Virus record (IMG/VR): IMGVR_UViG_3300006845_000013
Location: 1 to 35,079 of that record
DNA from: a virus
Reading direction: 5' to 3' (one strand)
Length of the DNA: 35,079 nucleotides
The number at the start of each line of letters is the position of its first letter. The stretch's first letter is position 1. Shown here in pieces: positions 2,130 to 35,079 of this stretch. Both the position numbers and the translations under genes were made by a program. The notes under the pieces are model-generated. The model saw only the letters and a list, made by a program, of their open reading frames with translations, was not told where the DNA came from and did no database searches.

Positions 2130-2849
2130 ATGCCGAACCTCAATCGGATCGATGTCCGTTGCCTGCCGGGGTTGTTCGCGTGGTATGATGCGAACTACAT
2201 CAACGGGTTCGGCAACGCCCAACCCGCCGCCGATGCGGCGGTGGCGCAATGGAACGATCTCTCGGGCAACGCGCGGCATCTGGCGCAAGGCACCGGGGCG
2301 AACCAGCCCTTGTTCCGGGCCACGGGGGGCCCGAACGGCTTCCCGTCGGTGAACTTCGTGGACGCCACGGATACGATGACGATCGCCACCGCTGGAGCGA
2401 TTGCGAGGCCGATCACCGTGGTGGCCTTGCTCAAGAACACCTTGGCGGATGACGCGGCGTATCACAAAGCGGCGACCTTCAACGCCGCCCGGATTGGGGT
2501 GGGTTTGGATTGGGCCACGGCGAACGCCTTCACGCCGTTTGACGATGCCGCCGCGCAAGCCGGAGGGACGGTCGCCGGGGATGTCACCACGTACCACATG
2601 GAAAGCTTCGTCGCGGCCCCGCTCAACTCGACCTCGCGGCAATGCGTGGACGGGATACACGCCTTCTCGGCGGGGATCGCTGGCACCAACACCAATTCGG
2701 ACGTGACGGTAGGTGGCGCGTCGTGGATTGGGCATCTGTGTGAAGTGATGGTCTTCACGCAGGACTTGGGGCCGTCGCAGCTCTGGGCCTTGGAACAAGC
2801 GTTGTGTGAAAAATGGGGCATGATTTCCAGTTACGCCTTACAGCGGTAG
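2130..2849 (+). CDS. LamG/concanavalin-like jellyroll protein, probable tail fibre or virion decoration
   Basis: 239 residues from ATG 2130, two bases after the adaptor stop. The N-terminus 'LPGLFAWYDANYINGFGN' with 'VAQWNDLSGNARHLAQ' is typical of LamG-like/laminin-G-3 jellyroll domains often found in phage tail fibres and virion surface proteins. The fold usually binds carbohydrate. The C-terminal 'GHLCEVMVF..DLGPSQLWALEQALCEKWGM' matches the end of such domains. It lies between the adaptor and the tail hub, so a virion-surface, possibly host-binding, role is likely. The stop TAG is embedded in a strong Shine-Dalgarno sequence for the next gene. Confidence 0.7.
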   Translation: MPNLNRIDVRCLPGLFAWYDANYINGFGNAQPAADAAVAQWNDLSGNARHLAQGTGANQPLFRATGGPNGFPSVNFVDATDTMTIATAGAIARPITVVALLKNTLADDAAYHKAATFNAARIGVGLDWATANAFTPFDDAAAQAGGTVAGDVTTYHMESFVAAPLNSTSRQCVDGIHAFSAGIAGTNTNSDVTVGGASWIGHLCEVMVFTQDLGPSQLWALEQALCEKWGMISSYALQR

Positions 2850-2854
2850 GAGGG
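2848..2854 (+). promoter_or_regulatory. Strong Shine-Dalgarno site before an AUC codon
   Basis: AGGAGGG, formed partly by the stop codon TAG of the preceding gene, with a 7-nt spacer to ATC 2862. This site decides the start of the tail protein at 2862. Confidence 0.7.
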
Positions 2855-2861
2855 TAGGCGC

Positions 2862-3809
2862 ATCGCCACGACCTTCACCACGAACTACGGGTTCGACAAG
2901 CCCGCCATCAGTGACCTGAACTGGGGCGGGATGCGAAACACGAACATGGATGACATCGACGCGGAGTTGGCGAAGCCGCGTCTGATTCAGTCCGCCCTCT
3001 CGTGGAGCGCGACGACGACCATCGACTGCTCGCTCGCCCGCGCCTTCACGGGGACGAACACGCAGGTCACAACGATTGCGTTCTCGAACGTCCCGACCTC
3101 GACGTTCTTCACGCGGCTCTGGCTCAAGATCACCAACGGGGCCGCCTTCGCGATTACGTGGCCCGCCTCCGTCGTCTGGGAAAACGGCGACGTGGACCCG
3201 GTACTCACCGCCTCCGGGGTGGATATCATCGGGCTCATCACCTACGACGGCGGCACCACGTGGTACGGCTCAGTGCTCCACCAGAAAGCGTTTGTGATCG
3301 GCGGCGACCTCCAGCAAAACGGGAAGGTCGTCTCCCGGATCGGGGGCAGCACCGGCACGAACCGGGTGGCCCACACCATCTTCACCGCCGCCAATCGGAC
3401 CACGACTTCCACGACGCTGACGGCGGTCGCTAGTTACACGCTCCCCGCCGCAAGCTTGGATCGCAACGGCGCGGGGCTCTATATCACCTACTCGGGCCTC
3501 GTGGGCGCGACGGATACCTTGGTCACCTTGGTCTGGGGGGCGACGACGCTCGCCAGCTTCACGGTCCTCGCGGGGAATCGGTTCTTCTTGCAGGCGTGGG
3601 TGATTCGGCGGGCGACGAGTTCGCAGCGGGTGGATATGCTGCTCGTGAACAATGCCGCCGTGTCGCAACCCGTGTCGGCCAATCCCACGGAGAATGAAGC
3701 CAGCGCGCAAGGCGTGACGTTCGGCTGTGACCAGACGGGCGCGGGGACGTTTACCCTGCAAACGGCCACGATTGTGTACCTCGATCCTGACACCACGAGC
3801 GTGAGCTAG
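2862..3809 (+). CDS. Tail fibre/structural protein with apparent AUC start
   Basis: 315 residues if read from ATC 2862. The natural N-terminus is x-ATTFTTNYGFDKPAISDLNWGG, a common phage tail-protein start, followed by 'MRNTNMDDIDAEL'. No ATG, GTG or TTG exists in frame upstream of ATG 2931, and starting there would remove this conserved-looking segment. AGGAGGG at 2848-2854 sits 7 bases before the ATC, an ideal ribosome-binding distance. The middle ('FAITWPASVVW...GGTTWYGS') resembles small beta domains repeated in phage tail proteins, and the C-terminal third is beta-rich. The stop overlaps the next GTG (TAGTG). The coding call is firm; the AUC start is inference. Confidence 0.7.
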   Translation: MATTFTTNYGFDKPAISDLNWGGMRNTNMDDIDAELAKPRLIQSALSWSATTTIDCSLARAFTGTNTQVTTIAFSNVPTSTFFTRLWLKITNGAAFAITWPASVVWENGDVDPVLTASGVDIIGLITYDGGTTWYGSVLHQKAFVIGGDLQQNGKVVSRIGGSTGTNRVAHTIFTAANRTTTSTTLTAVASYTLPAASLDRNGAGLYITYSGLVGATDTLVTLVWGATTLASFTVLAGNRFFLQAWVIRRATSSQRVDMLLVNNAAVSQPVSANPTENEASAQGVTFGCDQTGAGTFTLQTATIVYLDPDTTSVS

Positions 3810-24118: not shown

Positions 24119-24149
24119 GTTCGGGAGACCCTCGCCCCGAGTGTGACCG

Positions 24150-24431
24150 CTGGCCACCAAAGCGCAGGCGCTCCAGGACCTGGCCCAGCTCCGCGACCTC
24201 CACGATTGGCGTATTGCCTTGACCTACGGGCCGCTCCCTCGCATTAGCGGGGTGGATGCCTATGCGGGGTCCAGCGCTCCCGAGCGACTGATTCCTAGTA
24301 CCTTGCGGTCGGTGCCCGCCTCGCTCAATGCGATTTATCGGGCGGCGGATTGGCTCCTCGAAATCGCCCCGGAAGAACCGCATACCCTCGTGATGGACGG
24401 CGCTGCGCTGTGGCGGGCTGATGGCCGCTAA
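24150..24431 (+). CDS. Hypothetical protein with apparent CUG start
   Basis: 93 residues if started at CTG 24150. The frame is closed by TGA at 24144, so only CCG and CTG codons precede the natural-looking N-terminus x-ATKAQALQDLAQLRDLHDW. The first standard start is TTG 24219, which would remove 23 residues. No good ribosome site is seen for either. The rest reads 'YGPLPRISGVDAYAGS' and 'SLNAIYRAADWLLEIAPEEP'. Its 3' end overlaps the small terminase by 11 bases. The coding call is fair; the start is uncertain. Confidence 0.5.
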   Translation: MATKAQALQDLAQLRDLHDWRIALTYGPLPRISGVDAYAGSSAPERLIPSTLRSVPASLNAIYRAADWLLEIAPEEPHTLVMDGAALWRADGR

Positions 24432-29251: not shown

Positions 29252-29389
29252 ATGGGATTCCAAGGCACGGTGACCCCGGCTTCCAAGGAGAAGTTGGAGC
29301 GGGAGATCGCGGAACTCGAAGCGAGCGGCGCGAATCCCCGGAAACTCGAAGCCCTGAAAGCGGTGCTGAAAGATCACTATGGCGACTAA
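29252..29389 (+). CDS. 45-residue helical protein
   Basis: ATG 29252 directly follows the portal stop, with GGAGGGGG upstream at about 29240. The peptide contains 'SKEKLEREIAELEASGANPRKLEALKAVLK', a charged helical hairpin. It overlaps the next gene by 11 bases. Possibly an assembly cofactor. Function unknown. Confidence 0.6.
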   Translation: MGFQGTVTPASKEKLEREIAELEASGANPRKLEALKAVLKDHYGD

Positions 29390-29783
29390 CCCGCATTTCC
29401 TCGAAGCGGACCGCAACACCTTTCTGGACGCCATCGACACGTCGATTGGCGCCTCGGGCTTCCTGCGTATCTACGACGGGACGCAGCCCACGAACGTCGC
29501 CACCGCCCTCGGGGCACAGGTGAAGCTCGCGGAACTGCCCTTGTCGGCCACGGCCTTCGGGGCCGCCGCCGCCGGGGTTCTGACCGCGAACGCCATCACG
29601 GCGGATGCCTCGGCGGACGCCACGGGGACCGCGACGTGGGCGACGCTCACGACCTCGGCGGGCGTGCGGAAGGTCGATATGTCTGTGGGCACCTCCGCCG
29701 CCGATTTGATTTTGAACTCCACGTCCATCACCGCCGGGGCCAACGTCGCGTGCTCGGCGGGGACCATCACCTTCCCAGCCTAG
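29379..29783 (+). CDS. Minor structural protein, beta-rich
   Basis: 134 residues from ATG 29379. It begins 'ATNPHFLEADRNTFLDAID', then has 'GFLRIYDGTQPTN' and alternating A/T/G/V beta strands typical of phage virion decoration or tail-tip proteins. The stop TAG forms part of the Shine-Dalgarno sequence of the next gene. The position between portal and scaffold supports a head role. Confidence 0.6.
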   Translation: MATNPHFLEADRNTFLDAIDTSIGASGFLRIYDGTQPTNVATALGAQVKLAELPLSATAFGAAAAGVLTANAITADASADATGTATWATLTTSAGVRKVDMSVGTSAADLILNSTSITAGANVACSAGTITFPA

Positions 29784-29787
29784 GAGG
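29782..29787 (+). promoter_or_regulatory. Strong Shine-Dalgarno site before an AUC codon
   Basis: AGGAGG, again partly formed by the stop TAG of the preceding gene, 5 bases from ATC 29793. This is the same arrangement as at 2848-2862. Confidence 0.7.
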
Positions 29788-29792
29788 CTTCC

Positions 29793-30626
29793 ATCCTTTG
29801 GGTTCCCCAGAAAGGCCCACTCCGGGTCCAGCACAATGCCGGGACCGTCGGCGCCGCGACGCCGGGGACCGCCGTCACGACCGGGGCTGCCGAGGCGACC
29901 AAAGGCAGTTACGTCTCGCTCCTCACCACGACGTTCGATGTCTACTGGATATCGATCTATGCCCTGAACTACGGGAGCGCCGCCGCCGATTCCCAAGGGG
30001 CGATGGATATCGCGACGGGGGCGGCCACGCAAGAAATCATCATCCCCGATCTCTTGATGGGGTTTGCGGGCTGGTTCACGAGCACCGCCATCGGGCCGAA
30101 GCAATGGCATTTCCCGCTCTACATCCCGAACGGCACGCAAATCTGGGCGCGCGGTGCGGGCAAACGCCTCTCGACGGCGTACAACGTCGTCATTTACGTC
30201 TACGGCGGGGATGCGCTGCCCCCGTTTCGCGTCGGCCGGAAGGTCACGACCTACGGCATGGGCACCGTGCCGTTTGGGACGACCATCGTGCCGGGGGCCT
30301 CGGCGGCGGAGGGGGCATGGACGCAAATCACCGCCTCGACGAGCGAAAACCATTTCGCGTTCTATCCGAGCTTCCAAGCGGGCACCGACACGACGCTCAA
30401 TACGCTCGCGTATTTCGTGGATATCGGGACCGGCGCGGCGACCGAACTCGAAATTGGGCAGTCGTTCGTGTACCACATGACGGCGGATGAACGCATGGAC
30501 GGGCCGTGGAACACGTTTCCCGCGTTTGCGGATGTGCCATCCGGGACGCGCCTGGTGATGCGGTGCTCGAACAGTGGAGTCAACGATGTCGGCAACTATA
30601 ACGGCGTCATCCACGCCGTCAGCTAA
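29793..30626 (+). CDS. Structural protein with apparent AUC start
   Basis: 277 residues if read from ATC 29793. The natural N-terminus is x-LWVPQKGPLRVQHNAGTVG and the frame has no ATG, GTG or TTG before ATG 30003, 70 codons in. AGGAGG at 29782-29787 is 5 bases upstream of the ATC. The protein is beta-rich with Gly, Thr and Ala: 'AATQEIIIPDLLMGFAGWF', 'WHFPLYIPNGTQIWARG', 'VGRKVTTYGMG' and 'SGTRLVMRCSNSG'. It likely belongs to virion decoration or fibre proteins. Coding is firm; the AUC start is inference. Read-through of the upstream TAG is the alternative. Confidence 0.65.
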   Translation: MLWVPQKGPLRVQHNAGTVGAATPGTAVTTGAAEATKGSYVSLLTTTFDVYWISIYALNYGSAAADSQGAMDIATGAATQEIIIPDLLMGFAGWFTSTAIGPKQWHFPLYIPNGTQIWARGAGKRLSTAYNVVIYVYGGDALPPFRVGRKVTTYGMGTVPFGTTIVPGASAAEGAWTQITASTSENHFAFYPSFQAGTDTTLNTLAYFVDIGTGAATELEIGQSFVYHMTADERMDGPWNTFPAFADVPSGTRLVMRCSNSGVNDVGNYNGVIHAVS

Positions 30627-30635
30627 GGAGGACGT

Positions 30636-30887
30636 ATGGCCAAAGCGATGGTGACGGAGTGCTACGCGCTCGACATTGAGGACAATCTCTACAAAATCAC
30701 CGGCACGGCGGCGGTGACCACCGGGTCCTCGGGCCACATCTTCCTGACGTTCGAGGCGTCGTCGCCCACGTTTATCCCGGTGCTCCCGAATTGGCGCACG
30801 CGGGTGCGGGATGCCGTGATTGACGCGGCGGCGGCGGAAAACATCGAGGTCGATCAAGTGCTGCACATCGACTTGTCGATTTTGTGA
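30636..30887 (+). CDS. Small structural protein
   Basis: 83 residues from ATG 30636, with AAGGAGG upstream. The beta-rich layout 'CYALDIEDNLYKITGTAAVTTG' and 'GHIFLTFEAS' is followed by a helix 'RVRDAVIDAAAAENIEVDQVLHID'. Probably a minor virion protein. The stop overlaps the next GTG. Confidence 0.6.
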   Translation: MAKAMVTECYALDIEDNLYKITGTAAVTTGSSGHIFLTFEASSPTFIPVLPNWRTRVRDAVIDAAAAENIEVDQVLHIDLSIL

Positions 30888-32226: not shown

Positions 32227-33189
32227 ATGCCGAAGCCAGAACCCAGCGCGACGAGTTCCCTCACCGCTGGGGAAGCTGTTGGAAAGATCGCCGGGCTCAT
32301 CACCGAGACGGACGAGTCTCGCCCAGATGCCCCCGCGACCGAGCCCGCGCCGACGCCCGGCGCCCCGGCTGAGACTCCCCCAGCGCCCACTCCCTCCGAG
32401 CCCGCTGCCACCGAGCCCCCGCCGTCTGAGGACTCTGCCCAGACCTACGAAGTCACCGTGGATGGGGAAACCCACCAGGTAGACCTCGATGAACTCCGGG
32501 CAGGATACCAGAAGCACGAAGACTACAAGCGCAAGACGATGGCCTTGGCAGAGGAACGCCGGACGTTTGAGGCCGAGTCCCAGGCCGTGCAGGCGGAACG
32601 CACGCAATACGCGGATGGCTTGAAGCAACTGGTCTCAGCCATCGAGCAGTTGCAGGGGGAACCCGACTGGGATGCCCTTCACGCGAAGGTGGACCCCGCC
32701 GAGTTCTTGCGGCAAAAGGCCGAGTGGGAGCGGACCAAGGCGCATACCGAGAGGCTGAAAGCGGAGCAGCGCCGCGTCGAGCAGGAAGCGCAGGCCGACG
32801 AAATGAAACGCTACCATGCCTATGTCCGCGCGGAACAGGACAAGCTCAAAACCGCCCTGCCCGATTGGGCTGATCCCGACAAAGCCAAAGCTGAATCCGC
32901 GCAACTGCGGGCCCATGCCAAGAGCTACGGGTTTACCGATAAGGAGTTGGATCAAGTCGTGGATTCACGGACGATCCTCCTCCTGCGGGATGCCCTGAAG
33001 TACAAGCAATTGCAGCGGGAGCCCTCGGCCCAAGCCAAAGCCAAGAGCCCCGCCATTCGGACGGCGAAGCCCGGGGCCACTCCCCCGCCTCCTCCGGCCA
33101 ATGCACGCCAACAGGAACTGATTCAGCAGGCCGCCAAGACGCACCGGCTGCGGGATGCCTCCAAGGCCATCGAGGCGCTGCTGGAATAG
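32227..33189 (+). CDS. Scaffolding protein (putative)
   Basis: 320 residues from ATG 32227, with AGGAG upstream. A disordered Pro/Ala/Glu/Thr-rich N-terminus (about 25-70) leads to 'YEVTVDGETHQVDLDELRAGY', a short motif seen at the start of many phage scaffold cores. Long coiled-coil helices follow (about 100-215), rich in E, K, Q and A. The basic C-terminus ('QAAKTHRLRDASKAIEALLE') would bind the capsid protein. It sits directly upstream of the capsid gene, the usual place. It guides procapsid assembly and is lost before maturation. Confidence 0.78.
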   Translation: MPKPEPSATSSLTAGEAVGKIAGLITETDESRPDAPATEPAPTPGAPAETPPAPTPSEPAATEPPPSEDSAQTYEVTVDGETHQVDLDELRAGYQKHEDYKRKTMALAEERRTFEAESQAVQAERTQYADGLKQLVSAIEQLQGEPDWDALHAKVDPAEFLRQKAEWERTKAHTERLKAEQRRVEQEAQADEMKRYHAYVRAEQDKLKTALPDWADPDKAKAESAQLRAHAKSYGFTDKELDQVVDSRTILLLRDALKYKQLQREPSAQAKAKSPAIRTAKPGATPPPPPANARQQELIQQAAKTHRLRDASKAIEALLE

Positions 33190-33198
33190 GAGCAGAAC

Positions 33199-34173
33199 AT
33201 GACGATTATCGCGAACACGACCCTCGTGTTCGACATCAAAGGTGTCCGAGAAGAACTCTCGAACATCATCTACAACCTGAGTCCTGAGGATACCCCGTTC
33301 ATCTCGAACGCGGGGCGGGATTCGGTGGACAACACGCTGTACGAATGGCAGCGCGACGCGTTGGCGGCGGCGGTTTCCACGAACGCCCAGCTCCAAGGCG
33401 ATGACATCGCGGCCTTCGACGCAGTCACCGCGACCGTTCGCATGGGGAACCGGACGCAAATCAGCCGGAAAGCCATCATCGTCGCCGGGACGACCAACGC
33501 CGTCTCGACCGCAGGCCGGAAGACGGAACTCGCCTACCAGATCACCAAGCGGTCGGCGGAAATCAAACGCGACATCGAAAAGAACGCGCTCGACAACGTG
33601 GGCGCCGTGGCCGGGAACTCGACGACCGCCCCGAAGACGGGCACGATGGGGGCCACCATCGGCTCCATCGACGGCACCAACGTCTCGATGGGCGCCACGG
33701 GGACGAATCCGACCGACGCCCTGCTGTTCACCGACCCCCGCAACGATGGGACGCAGCGGGCCGCGACCGAAGCGCTCTTGAAGGTGGTGCTCTCGGGCGT
33801 GTGGGTGAACGGCGGGTCGCCTGATACGATCATGGTGGGCCCGTTCAACAAGTCGGTGTTCTCGGGCTTCGCCGGGATCGCGACCAAGACGTATTTCCAG
33901 GAAGCGGCGCGTCCGGCGGCCATCATCGGCTCGGCGGACGTGTACGTCGGGGAGTTCGGCACCTATTCGATCGTCCCGAACCGCTTCCAGCGGGACCGGG
34001 ATGCGTGGGTGCTGGACTTCGAGTACATCGACATCGTGTACCTCCGTCCGTTCCGGGTGGAGGAGCTGGCCAAGACCGGCGATGCCGAGAAGCGGATGCT
34101 GCTCGCGGAGTGGGGGTTGAAGGTAAAGACAGACTTCAGTCAAGGCCTGCTCGCGGACCTGCTCACCTCTTGA
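33199..34173 (+). CDS. Major capsid protein (DUF5309/SU10 type)
   Basis: 324 residues from ATG 33199, with AGGAG upstream. The start 'VREELSNIIYNLSPEDTPFISNAGRDSVDNTLYEWQRDAL' is the signature of the SU10-like HK97-fold capsid family. 'GNRTQISRKAIIVAGT' follows, then 'LAYQITKRSAEIKRDIEKNAL' (the spine helix). The C-terminus 'YIDIVYLRPFRVEELAKTGDAEKRMLLAEWGLKV' matches the family end. The gene is followed by a stable hairpin, consistent with its need for high expression. Confidence 0.9.
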   Translation: MTIIANTTLVFDIKGVREELSNIIYNLSPEDTPFISNAGRDSVDNTLYEWQRDALAAAVSTNAQLQGDDIAAFDAVTATVRMGNRTQISRKAIIVAGTTNAVSTAGRKTELAYQITKRSAEIKRDIEKNALDNVGAVAGNSTTAPKTGTMGATIGSIDGTNVSMGATGTNPTDALLFTDPRNDGTQRAATEALLKVVLSGVWVNGGSPDTIMVGPFNKSVFSGFAGIATKTYFQEAARPAAIIGSADVYVGEFGTYSIVPNRFQRDRDAWVLDFEYIDIVYLRPFRVEELAKTGDAEKRMLLAEWGLKVKTDFSQGLLADLLTS

Positions 34174-34937: not shown

Positions 34938-35079
34938 GCGACACCACGATGATCCTCGATACTGACCCCCTGACGGGGCGGGTGCGGACCTTTCACACGC
35001 TGCCCGATGGGCGGTTCGCCGTGGACAGCGCGGTGGACGTGGAGCCGATCATCGAGCAGAACAAGGACCTCGCGCCGTT
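34934..35079 (+). CDS. Conserved phage protein of unknown function, 5' part (continues to 284)
   Basis: GTG 34934 is the chosen start. It overlaps the previous stop and opens V-SDTTMILDTDPLTGRVRTF, in frame with the segment at 3-284 across the circular join. The whole protein is about 109 residues. Confidence 0.75.
   Translation, partial: MSDTTMILDTDPLTGRVRTFHTLPDGRFAVDSAVDVEPIIEQNKDLAP
34980..35079. repeat. Terminal direct repeat, copy 2 (circular closure)
   Basis: Exact copy of positions 1-100. Joining 34979 to 1 restores an uninterrupted reading frame for the gene that starts at 34934, which supports circular closure. Confidence 0.95.

Follow-up and report, generated by a model that had tools for sequence, protein, structure and literature searches.

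Can a phage gene begin at ATC, and can it do so repeatedly in one group of related phages? This question is raised by a viral DNA of 35,079 nucleotides, a record of IMG/VR type (hereafter the window, meaning the whole stretch that was analysed), in which two open reading frames, referred to as gene A and gene B, begin with ATC shortly behind the sequence TAGGAGG. The window encodes an SU10-type portal and adaptor (Pfam PF23899, E=1e-143, and PF24175, E=3e-25), and judged by its sequence the phage is an uncultured SU10-like podovirus. Its first 100 bases are repeated exactly at its end (1-100 = 34980-35079) and the two ends are bridged at 100% identity by the record 3300050510_000060, so that the map is circular, with 34,979 b. 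The 27 kb that an earlier note on this DNA had put between the two ATC genes is correct as a linear distance, and on the circular map shrinks to about 8 kb. A search for the host through the portal gene gave no match, and the head protein matched two MAGs at 41-47% only.

Two reading frames that open at ATC

The features of the two sites are as follows.

2130..2849, + strand: upstream gene of gene A, virion structural protein (phrog_10356; ATG at 2130 by homology)
2849..2853, + strand: Shine-Dalgarno GGAGG of gene A, overlapping the TAG stop, with an 8-nt spacer before ATC
2862..2864, + strand: putative ATC start codon of gene A, aligned with the ATG of relatives
2862..3809, + strand: gene A, 315 aa, tail-fibre-like, starting IATTFTTNYGFDKP (phrog_9017 tail fiber protein, E=3e-13)
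29379..29783, + strand: upstream gene of gene B, 134 aa, virion structural protein (phrog_3758, E=5e-30)
29783..29787, + strand: Shine-Dalgarno GGAGG of gene B, overlapping the TAG stop, with a 5-nt spacer before ATC
29793..29795, + strand: putative ATC start codon of gene B, aligned with canonical starts in 25 relatives
29793..30626, + strand: gene B, 277 aa, all-beta, probably a virion protein, with the conserved N-terminus (M/I)LWxPxKG

Both upstream genes terminate at the TAG of a TAGGAGG (TAG at 2847-2849 and at 29781-29783, the latter within TAGGAGG at 29781-29787). The gene B site reads cccagcc TAG GAG GCT TCC ATC CTT TGG GTT CCC; behind the TAG its frame stays open as far as 30626, with no ATG, GTG or TTG until 30003, 70 codons downstream of the ATC. 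For gene A the next canonical start is 2931. The arrangement that the earlier note had reported at 29793, with TAG inside TAGGAGG, a short spacer and ATC ahead of any nearby canonical start, is exact, as is the second case with the same layout at 2847-2862. Gene B lies among head genes. Its AlphaFold model (pLDDT 87.5) consists of beta strands throughout and gave weak Foldseek matches only, to beta-rich proteins (TM<0.4); its sequence had no match in Pfam, PHROG or PDB, and no similar phage record was found for it.

The pattern TAGGAGG-N4-10-ATC occurs at exactly two sites in the window, both of them opening reading frames of >270 codons. In 300 first-order Markov shuffles it appeared on average 0.17 times per window, and never opened a reading frame of at least 200 codons. 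Identical ATC copies are present in other metagenome records (L002 and L003 for gene B; also L021, L022 and L026), which rules out sequencing error.

Start positions in the relatives

Relatives of gene B were collected by profile search (45-90% identity, with a readable N-terminus and identical copies not counted), and these 25 proteins start with ATG (19), TTG (3) or GTG (3). In 25 of 25 the canonical start lies at the residue aligned with the ATC or one before it, adjoining LWxPxKG. By this alignment the ATC of gene B occupies the ancestral start position. Similarly, the ATC of gene A aligns with the M of MATTFTPNYGF in its relatives, where the codon is ATG (L059, L060, L062, L063, L074/L075, L137 and L141); for example, the N-terminus is MATTFTPNYGFDLPAVSD in L074/L075 vs IATTFTTNYGFDKPAISD in the window. 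In L059, L060, L062, L063, L137 and L141 this start residue stands in a TAA-ATG junction. Looking for ATG in relatives, as the earlier note had proposed, therefore yields ATG for gene A and ATG, GTG or TTG at the same residue for gene B.

These alignments bear on two alternative readings of the loci. In one, translation begins at the next ATG, GTG or TTG and the conserved stretch upstream is left untranslated. Start callers limited to these three codons would annotate exactly this, yet it would remove 70 residues from gene B and 23 from gene A, including conserved ones that align with ATG-started relatives, and there is no GGAGG before 2931 or 30003; we consider it scarcely credible. In the other, which the earlier note had named as a competing explanation, UAG is suppressed and each upstream gene is made as a fusion with the gene behind it. 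Both pairs in the window are indeed in the same frame with no other stop between them. However, the relatives of both genes carry a canonical start of their own, and the relatives of gene B either begin within the end of the upstream gene, in a different frame and through a TGATG overlap (L030/L005), or start independently, such that the in-frame continuation is not kept among them. Moreover, no tRNA gene was found in the window, and same-frame neighbours occur elsewhere in it with an ordinary ATG:

30624..30638, + strand: control site TAA GGA GGA CGT ATG, an in-frame stop, Shine-Dalgarno and start with canonical ATG (gene 30636-30887)
33187..33201, + strand: control site TAG GAG CAG AAC ATG, an in-frame stop (33187) and start (33199) before the major head protein (phrog_1328, E=3e-87)

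Suppression of the TAG to make a fusion is unsupported by these comparisons and appears extremely unlikely.

Recurrence and conservation of ATC starts in the phage clade

A start survey was carried out by aligning the N-termini of the window genes to their homologs on contigs of the clade, with Shine-Dalgarno sequences disregarded. The 172 distinct aligned starts comprise ATG (119), GTG (42), TTG (4), ATC (5) and CTG (2). A GGAGG lies upstream of 5/5 ATC starts vs 15/165 canonical starts (Fisher p=1.4e-5); it should be noted that the contigs are related, so that this p-value overstates independence, and that counted by independent family the comparison is 4/4 vs about 9%. The ATC starts fall into four gene families of the clade, two of them outside the window. 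For instance, the phrog_3758 homolog in L074/L075, i.e. the counterpart of the gene upstream of gene B, starts at ATC (IALNPHY) behind GGGAGGGGTAGTCCC, where the aligned N-termini are MATNPHF in the window and MANNPHY in L076. Likewise, a 7536-family gene in L083/L087 starts at ATC (ISKGGSSS) behind GGGAGGATAGCCCC, aligned with VKGGQQT in the window and VKSGGQS in L139. These further ATC-start genes in relatives support the earlier suggestion that AUC is tolerated by the phage or its host.

Among more distant relatives (1.03 Mb, 44% GC) no convincing ATC start was found. The pattern TAGGAGG-N4-10-ATC in G013, G014, G025 and G030 was set aside as apparent chance, being located inside or antisense to other reading frames, and the Shine-Dalgarno-anchored matches in L082, L113 and L108 were rejected as antisense or without homologs.

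Some smaller regularities were also observed. A TAG stands at -7 in three of the four ATC leaders (including 2853-2864 of the window, L074 and L083) and also in canonical leaders of the 32227-family; a C stands at -1 in all four (GTAGGCGC, GTAGTCCC, ATAGCCCC and CTTCC). Starts aligned with CTG, with no canonical start nearby, were seen in L073/L122 (LANNPHY, the gene upstream of gene B) and in the terminase small subunit of L121 (LAAKPIERF). In the window, the reading frame 24147-24431, which precedes the terminase small subunit gene (24421), has no ATG, GTG or TTG before 24219, and CTG GCC ACC AAA at 24150 resembles a CTG start; IMG/VR holds identical copies only. Together, the CTG starts in L073/L122 and L121 and the candidate at 24150 suggest some general looseness of start selection.

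The two window genes differ in how far the codon is conserved. At gene A, an 18-nt sequence including the ATC (TAGGAGGGTAGGCGCATC) is identical in three lineages (the window, L061/L023 and L095), and on either side of it the window departs from the other two after a few bases. Gene A is 69% identical between the window and L061, and four-fold sites of this gene and of its upstream neighbour are 45-56% identical between the same two, which is near saturation. A tree of the upstream gene places the three carriers on one branch (support 1.0); across IMG/VR the 17-nt prefix of the sequence is found only in these three lineages, and the next base is always C. Because it is identical in diverged lineages with near-saturated synonymous sites, TAGGAGGGTAGGCGCATC at gene A is probably under selection. 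At gene B, the ATC is confined to one phage species, and conservation does not demonstrate selection there. The TAGGAGG, whose conservation the earlier note had wished to see checked, is kept at gene A and absent from the relatives of gene B.

How the ATC codons arose is a separate question from whether AUC is the start, and one answer is that they are near-neutral scars. Illegitimate recombination would have destroyed an overlapping start, and a Shine-Dalgarno sequence with ATC would be a makeshift rescue and not regulation. In the closest relative in gene B (L030/L005, 90%), the gene starts at ATG without GGAGG, in a TGATG overlap in another frame, and compared with L030 a 10-nt insertion in the window created the stop, the Shine-Dalgarno sequence and the ATC. 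More generally, the tight TAAATG, TGATG or GTG-overlap junctions of relatives have been replaced at the gene A, gene B and 7536-family sites by insertions of 12, 10 or about 20 nt, each carrying GGAGG and ATC. Set against this, the ATC of gene A and all 18 nt around it persist across near-saturated synonymous divergence, even though a single C->G change would restore ATG. Such a scar is possible at gene B and fits gene A poorly; as an account of these sites in general we hold it to be rather unlikely. A different answer, that AUC is an accepted regular start throughout the clade and perhaps in its host, with GGAGG and AUC arising repeatedly at virion-gene borders and being selected for protein ratios, may be entertained but is doubtful.

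A further possibility is that the phage or its host has a dedicated initiator that reads AUC, such as an initiator tRNA whose anticodon is GAU, which would make AUC a regular start. The occurrence in four families, with ATC found five times and ATT and ATA never, would fit, since decay alone would favour ATA (ATG->ATA is a transition, usually the commoner change). On the other hand, the high GC content (63%) alone favours ATC over ATT or ATA, cf. infC of high-GC Streptomyces, ATG and GTG remain 94% of starts, and GGAGG accompanies every ATC found. Window and relatives together yielded no phage tRNA except one call at a contig end, a possible tRNA-Ala (cgc) at the extreme end of a related contig (L079, 6589-6677). 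We regard a dedicated initiator as very improbable.

Proposed mechanism and known near-cognate starts

What the comparison establishes is the position of the starts, the conservation of ATC at gene A, the recurrence in the clade and the association with GGAGG. With both ATC codons aligned to the canonical starts of homologs and preceded by GGAGG at 5 and 8 nt, initiation at AUC is very likely for genes A and B. We favour the reading, with a probability of roughly 0.85, that A and B are made as separate proteins from AUC, with fMet, through rescue by a strong Shine-Dalgarno sequence and at reduced yield. The GGAGG overlapping the upstream UAG stop would retain a 30S subunit, possibly one handed over by a ribosome finishing the upstream gene (coupling). 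Initiation by fMet-tRNA would then take place at AUC despite the third-position mismatch, so that the proteins would carry fMet instead of Ile at the N-terminus. Pairing a weak codon with a strong Shine-Dalgarno sequence would reduce the yield of the virion or tail protein, probably in an IF3-sensitive manner. It is plausible, by analogy, that such a start limits virion protein output, as the earlier note had supposed, or sets virion stoichiometry. Local folding predicts both Shine-Dalgarno sequences to be partially paired, and therefore an upstream ribosome may be needed to open them. A small perfect inverted repeat (AGCCT-AGG-AGGCT, 29777-29789) spans the stop and Shine-Dalgarno sequence of gene B, and as modelled it could mask the latter until the upstream ribosome arrives.

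Only a few bacterial genes have had a near-cognate start characterised by experiment, and ATC starts would be misplaced by gene finders that accept no codons besides ATG, GTG and TTG. Here, ATC starts in four families of one uncultured phage clade were established by comparison alone; our literature search did not find such a recurrence in virion genes of a phage clade described. These natural AUC sites lend themselves to the study of how a weak codon comes to be licensed jointly by Shine-Dalgarno strength, coupling to termination and IF3. They also suggest a rule for metagenomes: a GGAGG at 5-9 nt, a reading frame without canonical start and ATG-started homologs.

In E. coli, Hecht and colleagues in 2017 reportedly found AUC to be one of the weaker near-cognate starts. 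Phage T4 gene 26, a structural gene, has an internal AUU start. Another AUU start is that of E. coli pcnB (Binns and Masters 2002, as cited in PMC13009471). These two resemble the present sites in using a near-cognate start, the T4 case also in being a phage structural gene, but they are single isolated cases, whereas here four families of one phage clade are concerned, all with ATC. In S. aureus, cvfC1 (AUU) and ccpN (AUA) combine a conserved near-cognate start with a strong or extended Shine-Dalgarno sequence, as here, and yield about 10% of AUG (PMC13009471); they differ in being Gram-positive chromosome genes and not phage virion genes, and AUC is absent from that study. In vitro, IF3 weakens the reading of AUU by a CAU anticodon (PMC10158994); an fMet experiment in that paper omitted AUC with CAU. 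Streptomyces sigR likewise has a near-cognate start behind an extensive and conserved RBS (AGGAGGTG), is repressed by IF3, and its weak start sets stoichiometry with the neighbouring gene (PMC5472188). Its codon is GTC, however, its product is a cellular regulator, and the IF3 repression demonstrated for sigR is inferred here. The gene for IF3, infC, has an AUU or AUC start in bacteria and so shares the near-cognate AUN start; closest in codon is infC of Streptomyces, which starts at ATC itself in a high-GC genome (PMC5472188). IF3 regulates the expression of its own gene, whereas the phage virion and tail genes are unlinked to IF3 synthesis. The mechanism proposed for genes A and B is of the known kind represented by infC, sigR, pcnB and cvfC1/ccpN.
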